In this document: piece by piece, positions 56,388-64,000 of the stretch
Numbering within the stretch: the first letter of the stretch is position 1
How the letters are laid out: each line of letters begins with the position of its first letter
DNA from: Oribacterium parvum ACB1
GTDB lineage: Bacteria > Bacillota > Clostridia > Lachnospirales > Lachnospiraceae
Length of the DNA stretch: 64,000 nucleotides
Assembly: GCF_000238055.2 (NCBI RefSeq)
Contig: NZ_KE148312.1
Location: 1,980,501 to 2,044,500, forward strand
Direction of reading: 5' to 3'
Notes under the pieces: model-generated
The model's input: the letters and a program-made list of their open reading frames with translations, nothing else
Told to the model about the DNA's origin: nothing
Database searches by the model: none
Program-made: the position numbers and the translations under genes

Positions 56388-56756
56388 TTACAGTTCTGCT
56401 ATAGCCTCAATCTCACAAAGTACGTTCTTCGGAAGAGTCTTTACCGCTACACAAGAACGAGCCGGCTTAGAGGTAAAATACTTCTCATACACACTGTTAA
56501 AAGTAGCAAAATCAGCCATATCAGCCAAGAAACAAGTGGTCTTAACAACTTTGGAAATATCACTTCCACCTGCTTCAATAACTGCCTTTACATTCTTACA
56601 ACTCTGTTCAGCCTGTGCGGAAATATCAGCCGGAATTTCTCCATTTTCAGGGTTAACGGGAATCTGACCGGAAGAAATCACTAAATTTCCTACTACAAAG
56701 CCCTGGGAATAAGGACCGATAGCTGCAGGTGCATTGCTTGTTGATATAACTTTCAT
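56388..56756 (-). CDS. ridA: RidA family enamine/imine deaminase
   Basis: 122 residues from MKVISTSNAPAAIGPYSQG, with AAAGGAG seven bases upstream; the longer frame adds nine residues. SQGFVVGNLVISSGQIPVNPENGEI and RSCVAVKTLPKNVLCEIEAIAEL contain the conserved Arg and Glu of the active site. RidA hydrolyses the reactive enamines released by PLP enzymes such as threonine dehydratase; ilvA is nearby in the same cluster, which makes the pairing sensible. A separate promoter (TTGTTT, 17 bases, CATAAT) may lie just upstream. Confidence 0.93.
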   Translation of the reverse strand: MKVISTSNAPAAIGPYSQGFVVGNLVISSGQIPVNPENGEIPADISAQAEQSCKNVKAVIEAGGSDISKVVKTTCFLADMADFATFNSVYEKYFTSKPARSCVAVKTLPKNVLCEIEAIAEL

Positions 56757-56838
56757 ATTACTCTCCTTTACTAAAGAAAACAATTCTCGCTATATTATGC
56801 CAAAATCAGGATTGTAAAACAAGTATTTCGACTTTTTT

Positions 56839-57330
56839 TTACTTATTTTCACTCTCGGAAATCTTGAGCATTGCGAGCGTTCCGGTACGCGCACATTCCA
56901 AAATACTGACCGACTTTAAAGTATCTAAAAACATATTAATTCTTTCCGGGGTATCACACATTTCAATAATCATCTGTGAATGACCAAGCTCTGCAATTTT
57001 CGCCCCTAAAATCTGGCAATTTTCCATAATATCCTTCCGGTTATCTCTTTTATAGCGAAGCTTAACCATAAGAAGTTCCCTGCAAAGTCCCTGATTTTCA
57101 TTAAAGGTTCGCACTTTAATGATGTCGAGCTTTTTGTTCAGTTGTTTTTCCACCTGCTCTAAGGTTCGCTCTTCCCCGCTGGAAACAATCACCATATTGG
57201 AGATCGCGCTGTCCTCCGTCTCTCCTACAGTCAAGGAATCAATATTAAAGCAACGTCTCCAAAACAGTCCTGCAACCTTTGCCAAAACACCGGAGCGGTT
57301 TTCTACCAAAACAGAATAAATTCTCTTCAT
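56839..57330 (-). CDS. ilvN: Acetolactate synthase regulatory subunit, long form
   Basis: 163 residues, the usual IlvH/IlvN length. The N-terminal ACT domain (YSVLVENRSGVLAKVAGLFWRRCFNIDSLTVGETED) and the C-terminal ALS_ss_C part (ELLMVKLRY, ILGAKIAELGHSQMIIEMC) are both present. It confers valine feedback on the catalytic subunit. Its ATG overlaps the stop of the catalytic gene by one base. This is the second regulatory subunit in the cluster; the first (61572) is a short form. Confidence 0.93.
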   Translation of the reverse strand: MKRIYSVLVENRSGVLAKVAGLFWRRCFNIDSLTVGETEDSAISNMVIVSSGEERTLEQVEKQLNKKLDIIKVRTFNENQGLCRELLMVKLRYKRDNRKDIMENCQILGAKIAELGHSQMIIEMCDTPERINMFLDTLKSVSILECARTGTLAMLKISESENK

Positions 57331-58991
57331 CAGGCCGTCTCCTCCATATCTACAAAGACTTCCAAGATTCCATTTTCCTCTTTATCCAAAAAGGCTCGAA
57401 TACTCTCTTTTACCTCTTTATTCTCTTTTACGGAAAAATAAGAAAGACCGTACGCCTTGGAAAGCATGGATAAATCCGGATTCCCGCTTAAGTCAATCAT
57501 GGAATAATGCTCCTTATATGCCGTCTTTTGATACTGTCTTACCAAACCGAGAACGCCATTATGAAAAACAATGATTTTTACACCTGCGCTATATTGTCGA
57601 AGAGTCGCAAGCTCCATAAGACTCATCTGAAAGGCACCGTCTCCCATGACGGCAATAATTTCCTTTTTATTCTTTCTATCTTCTAAGCAAGCAATCTCCT
57701 TTTCCGCAAAATAAGCGCCAATTGCCGCAGGAAGAGAATAGCCCATGGTTCCCATACCGCCCGAGGTCAAGAAACGTCCTTCCTTCATTTTATAATGTTT
57801 GCAGGACCATAGCTGATTCTGTCCCACATCCGCTACATAGATAGCATCATCTTGTAATGCCAGATTCAGTTCCCTTAGGAAATAATACGGATTGACAAGA
57901 GTAGCGTTCAACTCCTCTTTTTTCTTCTTTTCTATAAGAAGCTCCGTCTCTTCTTTGATACCGTTTAATTCTTCCATCCAATCGGGATAGGAAAGCTCCG
58001 CTTCCACATGAAGAAGGCTATCCAGTACACTGGAAAGATCTCCTACCAAAGGAATCTCCGGACCGGCATTTTTCCCGATTTCCGCGGGATCCACATCAAT
58101 ATGCACCAAGGTTTTATTTTCCGTAATCAAATCGGGCTGACTGATAGAACGATCCGCAACTCTCGCGCCCATCATGATAATGAGTTCCGCTCTATTCATG
58201 GCCTTATTTCCGTAAGACCTTCCGTTGTTTCCCACCATACCGAAGTACAGCGGATCAATGTCCTGCATCGTGCCGAGTCCCATCATGGTGCTCACTACCG
58301 GAATATTGAATTTGTGAGAAAATTCCCTTACCTTTTCAGAAACCCCCGCTAAATGAACACCGCCTCCCACGCAAAGAATCGGTTTTTTTACATTTTCAAG
58401 ACGCTGAAACAAACGCTTAATCTGCACAGGATTTCCTTGCACGGTAGGTTTATAAGTACGCATTTTCAAGTCATCGGGATATTGGAATTTCCTAAGACTT
58501 GCCTTCTGCACATCAATGGGAATATCAATCAAAACCGGACCTTTTCGCCCTGTCATCGCGATATGAAAAGCCTCCTTAAAGACCTTCGGAATTTCTTCCG
58601 CATTGCGAAGAGTATAGCTGTATTTTACAAAGGATTCCGAGGCACCGCAGATATCCGCCTCCTGAAAGACATCCGAGCCGAGCAGACGACTCTCTACCTG
58701 TCCCGTAATCACAATAAGAGGAATGCTGTCCGCAAAGGCAGTCGCAATCCCGGTAATTACATTGGTCGCTCCGGGACCGGAGGTCACGGCACAAACTCCG
58801 GGTTTTCCGCTGATTCTGGCATAGCCGTTTGCTTCATGTGCCGCATTTTGCTCCGTTCGAACCAAGATACTTTCTATATCTGTACTTTCCAAGCTGTCAA
58901 AAAAAGGACAAATCGCTACACCGGGATAACCGAAAACATAGCTTACTTTTTCCAGCTCCAAACACCTGACAATCGCATCTGCTCCAGTCAT
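57330..58991 (-). CDS. ilvB: Acetolactate synthase catalytic subunit (second copy)
   Basis: 553 residues of the ThDP-dependent family. The catalytic Glu is in VRTEQNAAHEANGYAR; TSGPGATNVITGIATAFADSIPLI, GRKGPVLIDIPIDVQ and the ThDP motif GDGAFQMSLMELATLRQY are in place. It differs considerably from the copy at 61833. It follows ilvA by 26 bases. It makes acetolactate or acetohydroxybutyrate from pyruvate; a specialised catabolic role cannot be excluded, but the adjacent long regulatory subunit supports biosynthesis. Confidence 0.93.
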   Translation of the reverse strand: MTGADAIVRCLELEKVSYVFGYPGVAICPFFDSLESTDIESILVRTEQNAAHEANGYARISGKPGVCAVTSGPGATNVITGIATAFADSIPLIVITGQVESRLLGSDVFQEADICGASESFVKYSYTLRNAEEIPKVFKEAFHIAMTGRKGPVLIDIPIDVQKASLRKFQYPDDLKMRTYKPTVQGNPVQIKRLFQRLENVKKPILCVGGGVHLAGVSEKVREFSHKFNIPVVSTMMGLGTMQDIDPLYFGMVGNNGRSYGNKAMNRAELIIMMGARVADRSISQPDLITENKTLVHIDVDPAEIGKNAGPEIPLVGDLSSVLDSLLHVEAELSYPDWMEELNGIKEETELLIEKKKKEELNATLVNPYYFLRELNLALQDDAIYVADVGQNQLWSCKHYKMKEGRFLTSGGMGTMGYSLPAAIGAYFAEKEIACLEDRKNKKEIIAVMGDGAFQMSLMELATLRQYSAGVKIIVFHNGVLGLVRQYQKTAYKEHYSMIDLSGNPDLSMLSKAYGLSYFSVKENKEVKESIRAFLDKEENGILEVFVDMEETA

Positions 58992-59017
58992 CTTACCTCC
59001 ATTTACAATACTTCGTC

Positions 59018-60214
59018 TTACACCAACGAAAACCCTTCCTCACGAAAGCGTTTCTTAATTTCTTCTATATGCTTAAAATCTCGTGTTTCAATCCTTAATG
59101 TCAAATAGCAGCCGTTGATGTCCGAATCCTCCACATTCATGTTGTGATCGACCTTCGTTACATTGGCTCCCAGCTCCGCAATAATACGGGAAACTTCTTC
59201 CAATTGCCCCGGTTTATCCAAAAGAGAAAGTGTCAGAGATGCTTTCCTGCCGGTCTTTAAAAGACCGCGGCTAATGACACGGGAAAGAATATTGACATCA
59301 ATATTTCCACCGGAAATAATGCAGACCACCTTTTTCCCTTTAAGCGGAAGCTTATTAAAGAGAACAGCCGCAACAGAAACCGCACCGGCTCCCTCCGAGA
59401 CAATCTTCTGCTTCTCCATAAGCGTTAAGATTGCCGCGGCAATCTCATCATCACTGACGGTAACCAGTTCATCCACATACTCCCTTACCATTTCGTAACT
59501 TAAGTTTCCGGGAGATTTTACGGCAATACCGTCTGCAAAGGTATGCACCTCTTCTAAGCTTTCCAGCTTCCTATCCGCTACCGCCTGTACCATGGAAGCC
59601 GCGCCCTGTGCTTGCACACCGTAGACTTTACATTTCGGGTTTAATTTTTTGATTACGAAAGATACACCGGAAATGAGCCCTCCTCCACCGACCGGAACTA
59701 CAACGGCATCCGCGTCCTCCAGCTGTTCCATGATTTCCATTCCGATAGTGCCTTGTCCTGCCATGACATCAATATCATTAAAGGGATGAATAAAAACCGC
59801 ACCGCTTTCCTTCTGGTATTCTACTGCAGCGTTATAGGCATCATCGTATACACCGTCAATCATGCGCACTTCCGCTCCATAATTTCTGGTTGCTTCCACC
59901 TTGGAAATTGGAGCAATAGCAGGGAGGAAAATGGTAGACTTGGTACCGGCCTTGGTCGCCGCAAGTGCCACGCCCTGTGCATGGTTTCCGGCAGAGCAAG
60001 CCACTACACCTTTCTTCTTGTCCTCCTCGGAAAGGGTGGATATCTTAAAATAGGCACCTCGAATCTTGAAAGAACCGGTATTTTGTAGATTCTCCGTCTT
60101 TAAATACAGGTCACAATCTGCCTCTATTCTTGTCGCATGCACAAGATCCGTCTTATTGATTACCGGCTTCAGTACATGAGCCGCCTGATAAACTCTGTCC
60201 AGCGTAAGTTCCAT
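59018..60214 (-). CDS. ilvA: Threonine ammonia-lyase with C-terminal ACT domain
   Basis: 398 residues. PLP lysine in TGSFKIRGAYF, VPVGGGGLISGVSF phosphate loop, SEGAGAVSVAA, and a single ACT-like domain (LTLSLLDKPGQLEEVSRIIAELGANV) near the C-terminus. It makes 2-oxobutanoate for isoleucine. The about 400-residue one-ACT form resembles TdcB-type enzymes of Gram-positives, which can be biosynthetic. AGGAAGAAGGGGAA precedes the ATG. Confidence 0.94.
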   Translation of the reverse strand: MELTLDRVYQAAHVLKPVINKTDLVHATRIEADCDLYLKTENLQNTGSFKIRGAYFKISTLSEEDKKKGVVACSAGNHAQGVALAATKAGTKSTIFLPAIAPISKVEATRNYGAEVRMIDGVYDDAYNAAVEYQKESGAVFIHPFNDIDVMAGQGTIGMEIMEQLEDADAVVVPVGGGGLISGVSFVIKKLNPKCKVYGVQAQGAASMVQAVADRKLESLEEVHTFADGIAVKSPGNLSYEMVREYVDELVTVSDDEIAAAILTLMEKQKIVSEGAGAVSVAAVLFNKLPLKGKKVVCIISGGNIDVNILSRVISRGLLKTGRKASLTLSLLDKPGQLEEVSRIIAELGANVTKVDHNMNVEDSDINGCYLTLRIETRDFKHIEEIKKRFREEGFSLV

Positions 60215-60269
60215 TTTCCCCTTCTTCCTGCTAATCTTTTTTCAGATTTACAAACTTTTATCTTCTGAT

Positions 60270-60308
60270 TCTCTAAGATAGGCATCTTATCGAAGCTTAT
60301 CTTAGAGA
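60270..60308. repeat. Inverted repeat in the ilvC-ilvA spacer
   Basis: TCTCTAAGATA (60270-60280) and TATCTTAGAGA (60298-60308) are perfect 11-bp arms with a 17-base centre that can itself pair alternatively (AAGATA with TCTT/TATC). It has no T-run on the minus strand, so it is not a classical terminator. It could be an mRNA processing or stability hairpin or a protein site. Confidence 0.7.
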
Positions 60309-60345
60309 AATCAAAATTCCTTCTACCCCTTAAAGCAAAATATTC

Positions 60346-61571
<1,226 letters not shown>

Positions 61572-61823
61572 TTACTCTAAATCCGTTACGGACATCAACT
61601 CTACCTTCCTTACATCATAGAGCTTTTCCAGCTGGGAAATGACCTGCATCCGCATATACTCGTCTCCTGTGGAAACGATTTCAATCTTGGTACAACCCGG
61701 AATTTCAGTTGGTCCTGCCTGAATGGATTCAATATTATAGCCTCTCTTGCAATATAGACCGGTAATCCGGTTCAAAACACCGAAACGGTTATTAACAAAG
61801 AGGTCAATCGTAAACTTCTTCAT
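61572..61823 (-). CDS. ilvN: Short ACT-domain acetolactate synthase regulatory subunit
   Basis: 83 residues, a single ACT domain (TIDLFVNNRFGVLNRITGLYCKRGYNIESIQAGPTE) without the C-terminal domain of long forms. Similar in size to E. coli IlvM/IlvN. It starts nine bases after the catalytic gene. The different architecture from the 163-residue version suggests the two synthases differ in feedback control. Confidence 0.9.
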   Translation of the reverse strand: MKKFTIDLFVNNRFGVLNRITGLYCKRGYNIESIQAGPTEIPGCTKIEIVSTGDEYMRMQVISQLEKLYDVRKVELMSVTDLE

Positions 61824-61832
61824 GCTTTCTCC

Positions 61833-63479
61833 TTATAAGATAATTTCTTCCACTGATTTTCCGGGTGGAATCATCGGTAAAACCTTCTCATCCTTATCAA
61901 TATGACAGTCAAGAAGTACAGGGCCTGCAATATTCTTTCTTTCCTCTAAGGCCTTTTCCAGCTCCGAAATCTTATGAATGGAAAATCCCTTTCCGCCGTA
62001 AGCTTCGATAAGCTTTACAAAATCCGTTCCTCTGTCTAAGACCGTTGCAGAATAACGTTCTCCGAAAAAAGCGGTCTGCCATTGCCGAACCATACCGAGC
62101 ACCTGGTTATTTAAAAGCACAATCGTAATAGGAAGTCCCTCGTTTACTGCCGTACAAAGCTCATGACAATTCATGGAGAAGGATCCGTCCGAAGTAATCA
62201 AAAGGGTTTCCGCCTTATCTTTTGCAAGACAGGCCCCAATTGCCGCCCCCAAACCGTAGCCCATGGTTCCAAGCCCCCCGGAGGTAAGGAAGGTTCTTGG
62301 CTTCTCAAAGCGATAATACTGCGCTGTCCACATCTGGTGCTGTCCTACATCGGTAGCCACAACCGTTTCATCCTTCGTATACTTTCGTACCGTATCCAAA
62401 ATATTTTTCGGATGAAAAGCGTCCTTCTTAGGGTTCTTCACGACTTGGTAAGAATCTATTTCCTTCCACCACTCCGGATTCTTTCTTTCCTTAATCTTTG
62501 GAAGAATAGACTTCATCCATTTTTTAACATTGGCCTGCACGGAGCAATCGGGAGTCAGATTCTTTCCCAGTTCCGCCTTATCAATATCCACATGGATAAC
62601 CTTGCAATTTTTCGTGTATCGGGAAAGATTGCCGGTCGCTCTATCTGAGAAACGAACACCGACTGCAATCATCAAATCACATTCCGACTGCACCTTGGCA
62701 GCTTGGTAACTGCCATGCATCCCCACAAGACCAAGGCTCAAAGGATGCGAATCCGGAAATACCGTCCGTCCCATCATACTTACGGCAACAGGGGCATTTA
62801 ACTTTTCGGCCAATTCCCGAAGATAGTCCTCTCCTCCGGCAGAAACAATACCGCCGCCGGCATAGATAAAGGGCTTCTTTGCTTCATTAAGAAGCTTTAC
62901 GGCAACTTCTTCATCATAGGGAAGCTCCGCCTTCTCCGGCATCCTAGGAAGTACTGCCACTCCATACTCGCATTCATTTACCTGCACGTCCTTTGGAATA
63001 TCGATAAGCACCGGTCCCTTTCTTCCGGAATTCGCAATTAAAAAGGCTTCCTTTATGGTCTGCTCAAGCTCCGATACTTCCTTTACCATGAAGTTATGCT
63101 TTACAACCGGCTGGGTAATGGAAACGATGTCCACCTCCTGAAAGCTGTCTCGTCCTAAAGCTTCGGTCGCCACATTACCGGTAATGGCCACAAGAGGCAC
63201 AGAATCCAAGTAGGCATTCGCAATGCCGGTGACCAAATTCGTAGCACCCGGACCGGAAGTGGCAATCACGACACCGACCTTTCCGCTTGCTCTTGCAAAA
63301 CCGTCCGCGGCATGAGCCGCTCCCTGCTCATGCGCCGTTAGAACGTGGTGAATTCGGTCTCTGCATTGATACAGCTCGTCATAAATGTTTAAAACCGCAC
63401 CGCCGGGATAGCCGAATACGGTATCCACACCCTGTCGAATGAGTTCTTCAATTAAGATCCTTGCTCCTCTTAGTTTCAT
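61833..63479 (-). CDS. ilvB: Acetolactate synthase catalytic subunit (first gene of the ilv operon)
   Basis: 548 residues from MKLRGARILIEELIRQGVD; GGGGGAG lies eight bases upstream. An in-frame ATG seven codons earlier sits only two bases after the terminator T-run and is less likely. Catalytic Glu in LTAHEQGAAHAADGFARASG; TSGPGATNLVTGIANAYLDSVPLV; ThDP motif SDGSFSMNCHELCTAV (Ser-Asp-Gly-Ser variant of GDGS). It is the classical anabolic synthase, controlled by the attenuator just upstream. Confidence 0.95.
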   Translation of the reverse strand: MKLRGARILIEELIRQGVDTVFGYPGGAVLNIYDELYQCRDRIHHVLTAHEQGAAHAADGFARASGKVGVVIATSGPGATNLVTGIANAYLDSVPLVAITGNVATEALGRDSFQEVDIVSITQPVVKHNFMVKEVSELEQTIKEAFLIANSGRKGPVLIDIPKDVQVNECEYGVAVLPRMPEKAELPYDEEVAVKLLNEAKKPFIYAGGGIVSAGGEDYLRELAEKLNAPVAVSMMGRTVFPDSHPLSLGLVGMHGSYQAAKVQSECDLMIAVGVRFSDRATGNLSRYTKNCKVIHVDIDKAELGKNLTPDCSVQANVKKWMKSILPKIKERKNPEWWKEIDSYQVVKNPKKDAFHPKNILDTVRKYTKDETVVATDVGQHQMWTAQYYRFEKPRTFLTSGGLGTMGYGLGAAIGACLAKDKAETLLITSDGSFSMNCHELCTAVNEGLPITIVLLNNQVLGMVRQWQTAFFGERYSATVLDRGTDFVKLIEAYGGKGFSIHKISELEKALEERKNIAGPVLLDCHIDKDEKVLPMIPPGKSVEEIIL

Positions 63480-63502: not shown

Positions 63503-63533
63503 AAAAAGCCTTACAGCGTAACGCTGTAAGGCT
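63503..63533 (-). terminator. Attenuator terminator before ilvB
   Basis: AGCCTTACAGCG (minus strand from 63533) pairs with CGCTGTAAGGCT around TTA, a 12-bp GC-rich stem followed by TTTTT (63503-63507). It lies 20 bases after the leader peptide stop and just before ilvB, the place of a classical attenuator. Confidence 0.9.
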
Positions 63534-63553
63534 AAAGGCTCTCTAAACTGTCT

Positions 63554-63652
63554 TTATCTTCCTAATGAGGCGTTACACAAACAATCACTACTGTCTAAGA
63601 CAATAATGTTCACGAGAATAATAATGACTGTTAGTGCAACTAAAGCATTCAT
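63554..63652 (-). CDS. Branched-chain amino acid leader peptide (ilv attenuator)
   Basis: A 32-residue peptide beginning MNALVALTVIIILVNIIVL and ending SLGR. Of residues 4-19, thirteen are Leu, Val or Ile. AGGAGG stands nine bases before the ATG, and a consensus promoter lies upstream. The codon run is 63643-63596. The segment GTGTAACGC (63578-63570, codons 25-28) is complementary over nine bases to GCGTTACGC in the terminator (63524-63516). Stalling in the Leu/Val/Ile run would leave it free to act as antiterminator; completed translation would cover it. This is the textbook logic for ilv attenuation. Confidence 0.88.
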   Translation of the reverse strand: MNALVALTVIIILVNIIVLDSSDCLCNASLGR

Positions 63653-63682
63653 TCGCTTGCTCCTCCTAAAAAATATGTTTGG

Positions 63683-63711
63683 ATTATCCCATAGCCCTTT
63701 TTTTCTGTCAA
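63683..63711 (-). promoter_or_regulatory. Promoter of the ilv operon
   Basis: TTGACA (63706-63711) and GATAAT (63683-63688) on the minus strand, 17 bases apart. It sits about 30 bases before the leader peptide start codon. The stretch 63712-63801 is AT-rich and shows nothing else I can support. Confidence 0.9.
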
Positions 63712-63801
63712 GAATTTTCTGATTATGGGAGATATAACTTCAAAGTAAAAATAGAAAAATATATCGCTCTTTTAAACATATATTTTTATACCGAAGAAAT
63801 A

Positions 63802-64000
63802 TTATAACCGGATTCTGCCGTAATTTTTCCAAAGCAGAGGTTCTTCATGGCTGGCAAAAACCATGGCTCTTTTTCCTAAGTGCTCTAAAAGAAAACGCTC
63901 CATTTTTAGCTGATTTTCTTCATCTACTCCGGTAAAGGGTTCATCCAACAAAAGAATATCGAAATCCGGAAGCATTGCCCGTAAAAAGCTAAGGCGTCTT
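63802..64000 (-). CDS. ABC transporter ATP-binding protein, C-terminal part (cut by window end)
   Basis: The last 66 codons of a frame that enters from beyond the window. It reads RRLSFLRAMLPDFDILLLDE, continuing PFTGVDEENQLKMERFLLEH, and later VFASHEEPLLW. The segment after the signature motif, the Walker B aspartate and catalytic Glu (LLLDEP), the D-loop (TGVD) and the H-loop (SHEE) are all recognisable. The upstream half with Walker A lies outside. The protein ends at Arg-Leu, soon after the H-loop, so it is a short ATPase. Transported substrate unknown. Confidence 0.85.
   Translation of the reverse strand, partial: RRLSFLRAMLPDFDILLLDEPFTGVDEENQLKMERFLLEHLGKRAMVFASHEEPLLWKNYGRIRL

Follow-up and report, generated by a model that had tools for sequence, protein, structure and literature searches.

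The 64,000-nucleotide stretch of Oribacterium parvum ACB1 DNA analysed here (referred to as the window; source genome 2.47 Mb) carries, entirely on its minus strand, a short regulatory region in which promoter, Shine-Dalgarno sequence, leader peptide open reading frame (ORF), terminator and the acetolactate synthase gene ilvB follow one another in this order (Table 1). With a probability of roughly 90%, we consider this region to be a ribosome-mediated transcription attenuator of the ilvB operon. The parts of the switch, their conservation, the covariation of the antiterminator and the mutual exclusion of antiterminator and terminator at the appropriate ribosome positions emerge from sequence comparison and RNA folding. 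A preliminary description of the region had listed a consensus promoter, an AGGAGG motif, a 32-codon frame with 13 leucine, valine or isoleucine residues at positions 4-19, a nine-base match of an antiterminator to the terminator apex and a strong terminator with a T-run before ilvB. All of these were recovered, and its reading as ribosome-mediated attenuation is supported by the conserved frame, the covarying pairing and a folding that is gated by the ribosome.

The leader peptide MNALVALTVIIILVNIIVLDSSDCLCNASLGR begins with ATG 63652 and ends at TAA 63556..63554. Its 13 Leu/Val/Ile in 16 residues, a codon run for the amino acids made by the operon, is the highest 16-residue score among 882 short ORFs (15-60 amino acids, both strands) in the window and is attained by 1 of 20,000 mononucleotide shuffles of the leader. 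The ORF has a ribosome binding site of its own and is predicted to be translated. Between leader and first gene stands an intrinsic terminator, as in all 19 leaders compared; in the window its hairpin (63533..63507) has a folding energy of -18.7 kcal/mol (z -7.1), none of 200 shuffles is equally stable, and T's follow it. An upstream strand, region 2 (GTGTAACGC), is complementary to region 3 (GCGTTACGC) in the loop and upper arms of this hairpin through eight Watson-Crick pairs and one G-U (helix A), and at the base of the terminator's 5' arm the antiterminator adds a short helix B, AGG with CCU. By computation, this antiterminator excludes the terminator and is itself gated by the position of the ribosome. 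The antiterminator had been described as pairing with the loop-proximal part of the terminator rather than with the base of its 5' arm; this holds for helix A but not for the antiterminator as a whole, as the second helix reaches the 5' arm base in 18 of the 19 leaders (the exception being L002).

The comparison comprised 19 leaders from 19 genomes, 12 of them from the genus and seven from outside it (G-numbers denote genomes, L-numbers the loci or leaders compared); the genome G079 was excluded, as its leader is divided between two contigs. According to the preliminary description, a frame or a pairing that is lost in close relatives would refute its reading; neither loss was found. The frame is open and is followed by a terminator and ilvB in 19/19 leaders, with the FGYPGG motif of ilvB 106-563 nt past the terminator apex, and the pairing covaries with some mismatches. 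Eighteen leaders contain 11-13 Leu/Val/Ile per 16 residues. In all 19, the distance from the first base of region 2 to the stop codon is 3-31 nt, so that a terminating ribosome of the assumed footprint would cover all or part of region 2 or of helix B. An unbiased duplex search in the 110 nt upstream placed the best partner for the terminator 5' arm and loop over region 2 in 19/19 leaders, and in the 15 leaders compared with shuffles 1-25 of 300 shuffles were as good. Among 13 distinct rows of helix A, 101 of 117 cells are paired, in comparison to a mean of 86.5 and a maximum of 99 after re-dealing the partners (0/20,000 re-deals reach the observed value), and sliding the register by 1-4 leaves 28-77 of 171 cells paired versus 147 in the true register; neither control removes the relatedness of the leaders. 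Pair 3 varies between A-T, C-G and T-A, and pair 5 between A-T, T-A and T-G with two mismatches. In L165, helix A reaches full pairing only with a bulge.

The preliminary description had also proposed folding with and without a ribosome. The ribosomal A site was stepped codon by codon along an RNA that ended just past region 3, with an assumed footprint, and the probability of helix A was taken as the mean over its seven inner pairs. For A-site positions from codon 4 to codon 19, with the apex just made, this probability was 0.79-0.98 in the window, and the antiterminator persisted for positions up to codon 22; with a ribosome near the stop codon or with none, the terminator formed. The footprint covers part of region 2 from codon 23 and all of it from codon 25. 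The helix A probability of 0 in the ribosome-free window RNA is due to pairing of region 2 with the leader. With one parked position per leader, a stalled ribosome gave 6.2-9.0 pairs between regions 2 and 3 and a ribosome at the stop gave the terminator in 19/19 leaders. The best upstream partner of region 2 (61 nt) lies at the ribosome-binding or start region in 18/19 leaders, 16 of which share an ACGCA motif.

Several observations weigh against the interpretation as a ribosome-gated attenuator. Positions 20-22, whose codons do not specify branched-chain amino acids (BCAA), likewise give a helix A probability of 0.98 and thus predicted antitermination. At equilibrium, the complete terminator wins at every ribosome position (0.95-0.98); therefore, the switch must be kinetic. 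Kinetic switching is established for other attenuators. The ribosome-free state suppresses the antiterminator in 12/19 leaders and partly in seven, and one of the suppressed leaders, L006, has no measurable protector pairs. The protector of the window uses codons 5-7, and its isolated duplex is no better than shuffles (156/500). Leader L046 has just 7 Leu/Val/Ile in 16 residues. The covariation within the genus is modest (142/10,000 re-deals reach the observed pairing), 16 of the 117 helix A cells are unpaired, and 11 of the 13 distinct rows contain at least one wobble or mismatch. Mismatches number two in L046, one in L006 and three in L161, and an A-C mismatch occurs in L160, L162, L163 and L168 (four of the seven non-genus leaders). 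The idea of a protector as a universal part of the switch was dropped, since its duplex beats 95% of shuffles in just 9/19 leaders and 12/19 suppress; we retain it as a secondary feature.

Based on these results, we propose the following course of events. RNA polymerase would start near 63676 and a ribosome would begin to translate the Leu/Val/Ile-rich leader. If too little Leu-, Val- or Ile-tRNA is charged, the ribosome would slow within codons 4-19 and cover region 1, leaving region 2 free to pair with region 3 in the loop and upper 5' arm of the terminator as it emerges, assisted by the short base helix; with the antiterminator formed, the polymerase would proceed into ilvB. If the amino acids are plentiful, the ribosome would reach the stop codon and cover region 2 wholly or partly together with helix B, and the terminator would form. 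In the absence of a ribosome, the leader itself would hold region 2 and the terminator would again form. The pausing and footprint of the ribosome and the response to amino acids are what we infer from the codon run and the folds, and the regulation as such is predicted from sequence.

The ORF could instead encode a functional small hydrophobic membrane peptide, with a terminator that merely insulates ilvB from upstream transcription. The peptide is indeed hydrophobic with a conserved core, and an ABC-type ATPase-like gene (named by eye) ends on the same strand at 63802; however, a promoter lies between this gene and the ORF, ilvB follows the ORF in 19/19 leaders, the antiterminator covaries, and the peptide has no Pfam match at E up to 1. 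In L007, L008 and L011, moreover, one extra base shifts the frame and places the stop (GTG TAA) inside the antiterminator strand; C-terminus and stop are thereby displaced while the strand, and with it helix A, is unchanged. We consider this explanation very unlikely. A further alternative is an arrest of the ribosome by the nascent chain in place of slow decoding of BCAA codons. Ten of the twelve genus leaders share the core VIIILVNIIV exactly or with little change (VIMILVNIIV in one), which is beyond what a counting of codons alone needs, yet the residues differ in O. sinus (IIMILAVIIV), in G002 and in other genera (VVIRIIVSIIVV), with the Leu/Val/Ile content kept in 18/19 leaders. The same nucleotides also form hairpin P1 and region 1, which can explain conservation at the nucleotide level, and we regard an arrest peptide as very unlikely, too.

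BCAA control in Firmicutes is usually attributed to T-boxes and CodY. In the window leader and in the 17 Oribacterium loci, not one Rfam family, the T-box family RF00230 included, scores at its gathering threshold, and at E up to 10 the window leader matches four low-scoring, unrelated families only; a T-box or other Rfam RNA at the locus was rejected on these scans, in agreement with the preliminary description, which had seen no T-box there. The ilvB-II, ilvB-OMG and ilvB motifs gave no Rfam match either, their presence in the Rfam copy used being unverified. T-boxes are nevertheless present elsewhere: matches at E ≤ 0.001 occur in 17/17 genus genomes and lie above the cut-off in 16. The genome of the window has two (114.6 bits, above the cut-off, and 77.5 bits, below it), before genes which we take by eye to be pheST and trpB. 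None of 20 ilvB loci (18 Lachnospiraceae-labelled ones, L145 and L071) has an Rfam family at threshold, and among 20 other ilvB loci a T-box was found in two, immediately ahead of ilvB in L074 and some 2 kb upstream in L097, and a tRNA in one. On contig C49 of G011, a sub-threshold T-box match (88.8 bits, 75978-76257) lies about 3 kb upstream of a divergent ilvB (71261-72913), both on the minus strand. Control by CodY was rejected as well, because its domain (PF06018) is found in 0/17 genus genomes while the Bacillus subtilis and Lactococcus lactis controls were positive; a 15-mer beside the -35 box (63727..63713) resembles a CodY box, judged by eye. That attenuation is real and its sensor is a T-box, a ppGpp riboswitch or another ligand-binding RNA is hardly credible to us: ppGpp riboswitches do occur on some ilvB genes (PMC10272879) and L074 has its T-box directly before ilvB, but the absence of Rfam families from the window leader and the 17 genus loci and the conservation of the Leu/Val/Ile-rich frame and of the stop position argue against it.

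The leader was found upstream of ilvB in 12 of the 17 Oribacterium genomes of the genus sample, eleven times by DNA search and once, in G002, which BLAST had missed, by reading upstream of ilvB. As to the remaining five, ilvB of G008 lies at a contig edge; G011 has an IlvB of 51% identity whose upstream region is without a flagged Leu/Val/Ile-rich ORF; the sole enzyme found in G016 is 37% identical; and G014 and G015 have no IlvB match at E ≤ 1e-100. For comparison, the IlvB of O. sinus DSM 17245 (L069) is 79% identical to that of the window.

Outside the genus, a DNA search of 397 Lachnospiraceae genomes (334 genera) with one leader gave nothing convincing, but covariance models succeeded. 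Model R1, built from the 12 genus leaders, found seven genomes outside the genus (E 1.7e-6 to 5.5e-3) with a Leu/Val/Ile-rich ORF and a terminator directly before ilvB; at E ≤ 0.1, 25 genomes matched, loci L176-L181 being left out of the reading. Model R2, built from 18 sequences, recovered the same seven and alone added G079. An ilvB attenuator is thus present in 10/397 family genomes and 8/334 genera, eight of these genomes (seven genera) lying outside the genus. The non-genus leaders, for example MMTSLVLLAVVIRIIVSIIVVCENAYLRYAEPEVI, align with the Oribacterium leaders in DNA, and so do the residues after the BCAA run (AYLRYA in other genera, AYLCKA in Oribacterium). At E ≤ 0.01, R2 matched 20 family genomes: the ten ilvB attenuators, four Phe/Tyr leaders before a DAHP-synthase-like gene, and six others, of which four (L193; L195, at the place of L167; L196; L201) have no BCAA leader before an ilv gene and two (L198, L199) were left out.

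In the class sample (321 genomes), R2 matched eight genomes, G000 included. One of them, G482, belongs to another family and has a leader MSKQYSHNFIVVLINLISLVIIGEANKAYCGCAERA, a terminator and ilvB in this order (L233); matches L234, L235, L236 and L238 have no BCAA leader before an ilv gene. The strong R2 match L232 (G569; 73 bits) is an orphan in which the leader MNNIYFVIISIILISIIIIRDTAVLRCAKIKG and a terminator are followed by an ORF that, by eye, looks like a GerA-type spore germination protein and not an ilv product. Outside the class, Oligosphaera ethanolica (L071) and a Lentisphaerae metagenome-assembled genome (MAG; L073) gave weak R2 matches in the right place (E 3e-4 to 7e-3), and in L073 (2000-2464) two successive units of Leu/Val/Ile-rich leader ORF and terminator precede ilvB. 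A simple scan of the upstream regions of 80 named ilvB loci (L069-L148) flagged such ORFs in 18, and it is no evidence on its own because control windows are flagged at a similar rate (79/400 and 76/400). Leu/Val/Ile-rich ORFs also stand before ilvB in L082 and L097 (Ruminococcus), in L145 (a Clostridia MAG) and in Oligosphaera (L071); a terminator is present in L082, L145 and L071, and shuffles were as good as the best partner of its arm in 10/500, 63/500 and 3/500 cases, respectively.

The attenuator goes with one lineage of ilvB, as indicated by the IlvB tree and by the closest IlvB proteins. The tree has 94 rows (16 attenuator rows, which were selected for carrying the attenuator, 77 of 79 named loci, and the second enzyme of the window; rooted at the midpoint; one row less than half filled). 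The attenuator rows fall into a single group (100/96), to which the Lentisphaerae MAG L073 is the neighbour, and 18 other Lachnospiraceae-labelled IlvB cluster together elsewhere. Nine of the 397 family genomes encode an IlvB scoring at least 750 bits against that of the window, and eight of the nine have the attenuator. Against this stands the ninth, G308 (L204; absent from the tree), whose IlvB is 68% identical: neither a leader ORF nor an R2 match was found upstream, and a promoter-like stretch runs straight into ilvB. The attenuator was likely lost in G308; alternatively, it was never gained. R2 matched none of the 20 IlvB loci that rank next (L211-L231, leaving out L217, a contig fragment). 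Transfer between phyla may be one reading of the tree.

The pairing logic 1:2, 2:3 and 3:4 is that of the enterobacterial ilvGMEDA, leu and trp attenuators. The Oribacterium leader shares it, as far as the folding model goes, and is of the trp/ilv type; sequences were compared through Rfam scans. Ribosome-mediated BCAA attenuators are published for Listeria (PMC5864092) and Corynebacterium (PMC10272879, PMC11857589) and proposed with genetic support for Staphylococcus aureus (PMC5794164); these systems are likened to the Oribacterium leader by description. Rli60 of the Listeria monocytogenes ilv-leu operon likewise has a BCAA leader peptide and overlapping antiterminator and terminator in a ribosome-mediated switch, and loss of leader translation is described as super-attenuation (PMC5864092). 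In contrast to the longer Oribacterium leader before ilvB in a genus with CodY in 0/17 genomes, its 13-residue leader precedes ilvD and is under CodY (PMC5864092). The S. aureus ilvD leader, also from a Firmicute, is similarly Leu/Ile-rich with a conserved terminator, but its antiterminator is predicted on the terminator poly-U with the hairpin intact (PMC5794164), whereas region 2 in Oribacterium takes the loop and 5' arm. The Corynebacterium ilvBNC leader (ilvB-II motif) combines a BCAA-rich upstream ORF (uORF) and a terminator before ilvB with competing terminator, antiterminator and anti-antiterminator hairpins; it comes from another phylum and its leader usually has 15-17 residues (PMC10272879, PMC11857589). 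The ilvB-OMG (41 representatives, various phyla) and Leptospira ilvB motifs are RNA motifs before ilvB that were likewise reinterpreted as BCAA-rich uORFs (PMC10272879); the Oribacterium family and the Lentisphaerota loci L071 and L073 are set beside ilvB-OMG by description, not by alignment.

As to leader peptides for other amino acids, histidine leader peptides are described in bacilli with a remark on leader peptides replacing T-boxes in Firmicutes (PMC2965389), both Oribacterium and leader peptides are mentioned in work on how histidine genes are regulated (PMC9413887), and a uORF candidate stands before aroF in Acholeplasma (PMC8632094). Phe/Tyr-rich leader ORFs, such as MREFLFSAAYFFFYFFGFSFSGFNEKVICAVENRASV of L200, were observed around locus position 1500-1660 in L192, L194, L197, L200 and L237; each stands with a terminator ahead of a gene that by eye resembles DAHP synthase. 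They come from four Lachnospiraceae genera and, with L237, from one other family. Among the matches listed in a search of titles and abstract openings of open-licence literature, there was no description of a BCAA leader of the present type in Oribacterium, Lachnospiraceae or Clostridia, and a description elsewhere is possible.

The features of the locus are collected in Table 1. The preliminary description had placed the start of ilvB at ATG 63500; we correct this to the likely ATG 63476, because the O. sinus protein aligns from there. The same-strand run from 56388 to 63476 contains two large/small pairs of acetolactate synthase subunits, the first small subunit having just 83 amino acids. 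The seven genes from ilvB to the Rid-family gene probably form one transcript.

Table 1 Features of the ilvB attenuator and the genes downstream of it in the window
Feature	Position	Strand	Basis
Sigma-70 type promoter, TTGACA-17-GATAAT with TG	63683..63711	-	11/12 consensus
Shine-Dalgarno AGGAGG of the leader peptide	63662..63667	-	sequence
Leader peptide ORF, 32 aa, 13 Leu/Val/Ile in residues 4-19	63554..63652	-	ORF calling, shuffles, relatives
Region 1, GTTGCAC (codons 5-7), protector: pairs with region 2 in ribosome-free RNA	63634..63640	-	folding
Hairpin P1, CATTATTGTC/GACAGTAGTG	63586..63608	-	retained in relatives with variation, some mismatches
Region 2, antiterminator 5' strand GTGTAACGC (helix A)	63570..63578	-	pairing, covariation, folding
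Helix B 5' strand AGG; partner CCU 63531..63529 at terminator 5' arm base	63561..63563	-	duplex search
Region 3, antiterminator 3' strand GCGTTACGC: terminator loop and upper arms	63516..63524	-	pairing, covariation, folding
Intrinsic terminator hairpin and T-run	63503..63533	-	folding energy
ilvB, acetolactate synthase large subunit, first gene under predicted control	61833..63476	-	TIGR00118
ilvN-like small subunit, short (83 aa)	61572..61823	-	TIGR00119
ilvC, ketol-acid reductoisomerase	60346..61359	-	NF004017
ilvA, threonine ammonia-lyase	59018..60214	-	TIGR01127
Second acetolactate synthase large subunit	57330..58991	-	TIGR00118
Second acetolactate synthase small subunit (163 aa)	56839..57330	-	TIGR00119
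Rid-family protein, last of the same-strand run, start codon uncertain	56388..56783	-	TIGR00004

In conclusion, the kind of switch is known; new is a conserved clostridial family without Rfam match that is linked to one ilvB lineage. With somewhat less than even confidence, we further speculate that this is an undescribed, old attenuator family of Clostridia that travelled with its ilvB lineage, whose nearest sampled relative is in Lentisphaerota, that it works through one RNA strand with successive partners (the ribosome-binding region or early codons of the leader, then the ribosome or the terminator loop and 5' arm), and that, together with the Phe/Tyr family, leader-peptide attenuation may be a regular alternative to the T-box in Clostridia. 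The covariance models and the 19 aligned leaders constitute a searchable family, and the ilvB tree makes a spread of the regulator with its gene testable. Because T-box matches precede the pheST-like and trpB-like genes of the same organism, the type of sensor can differ from one gene to the next in a single genome. In a lineage of Lachnospiraceae and some relatives, ilvB appears to be controlled by a leader peptide, outside the usual T-box and CodY account: an ordinary type of switch, found where it was not expected.
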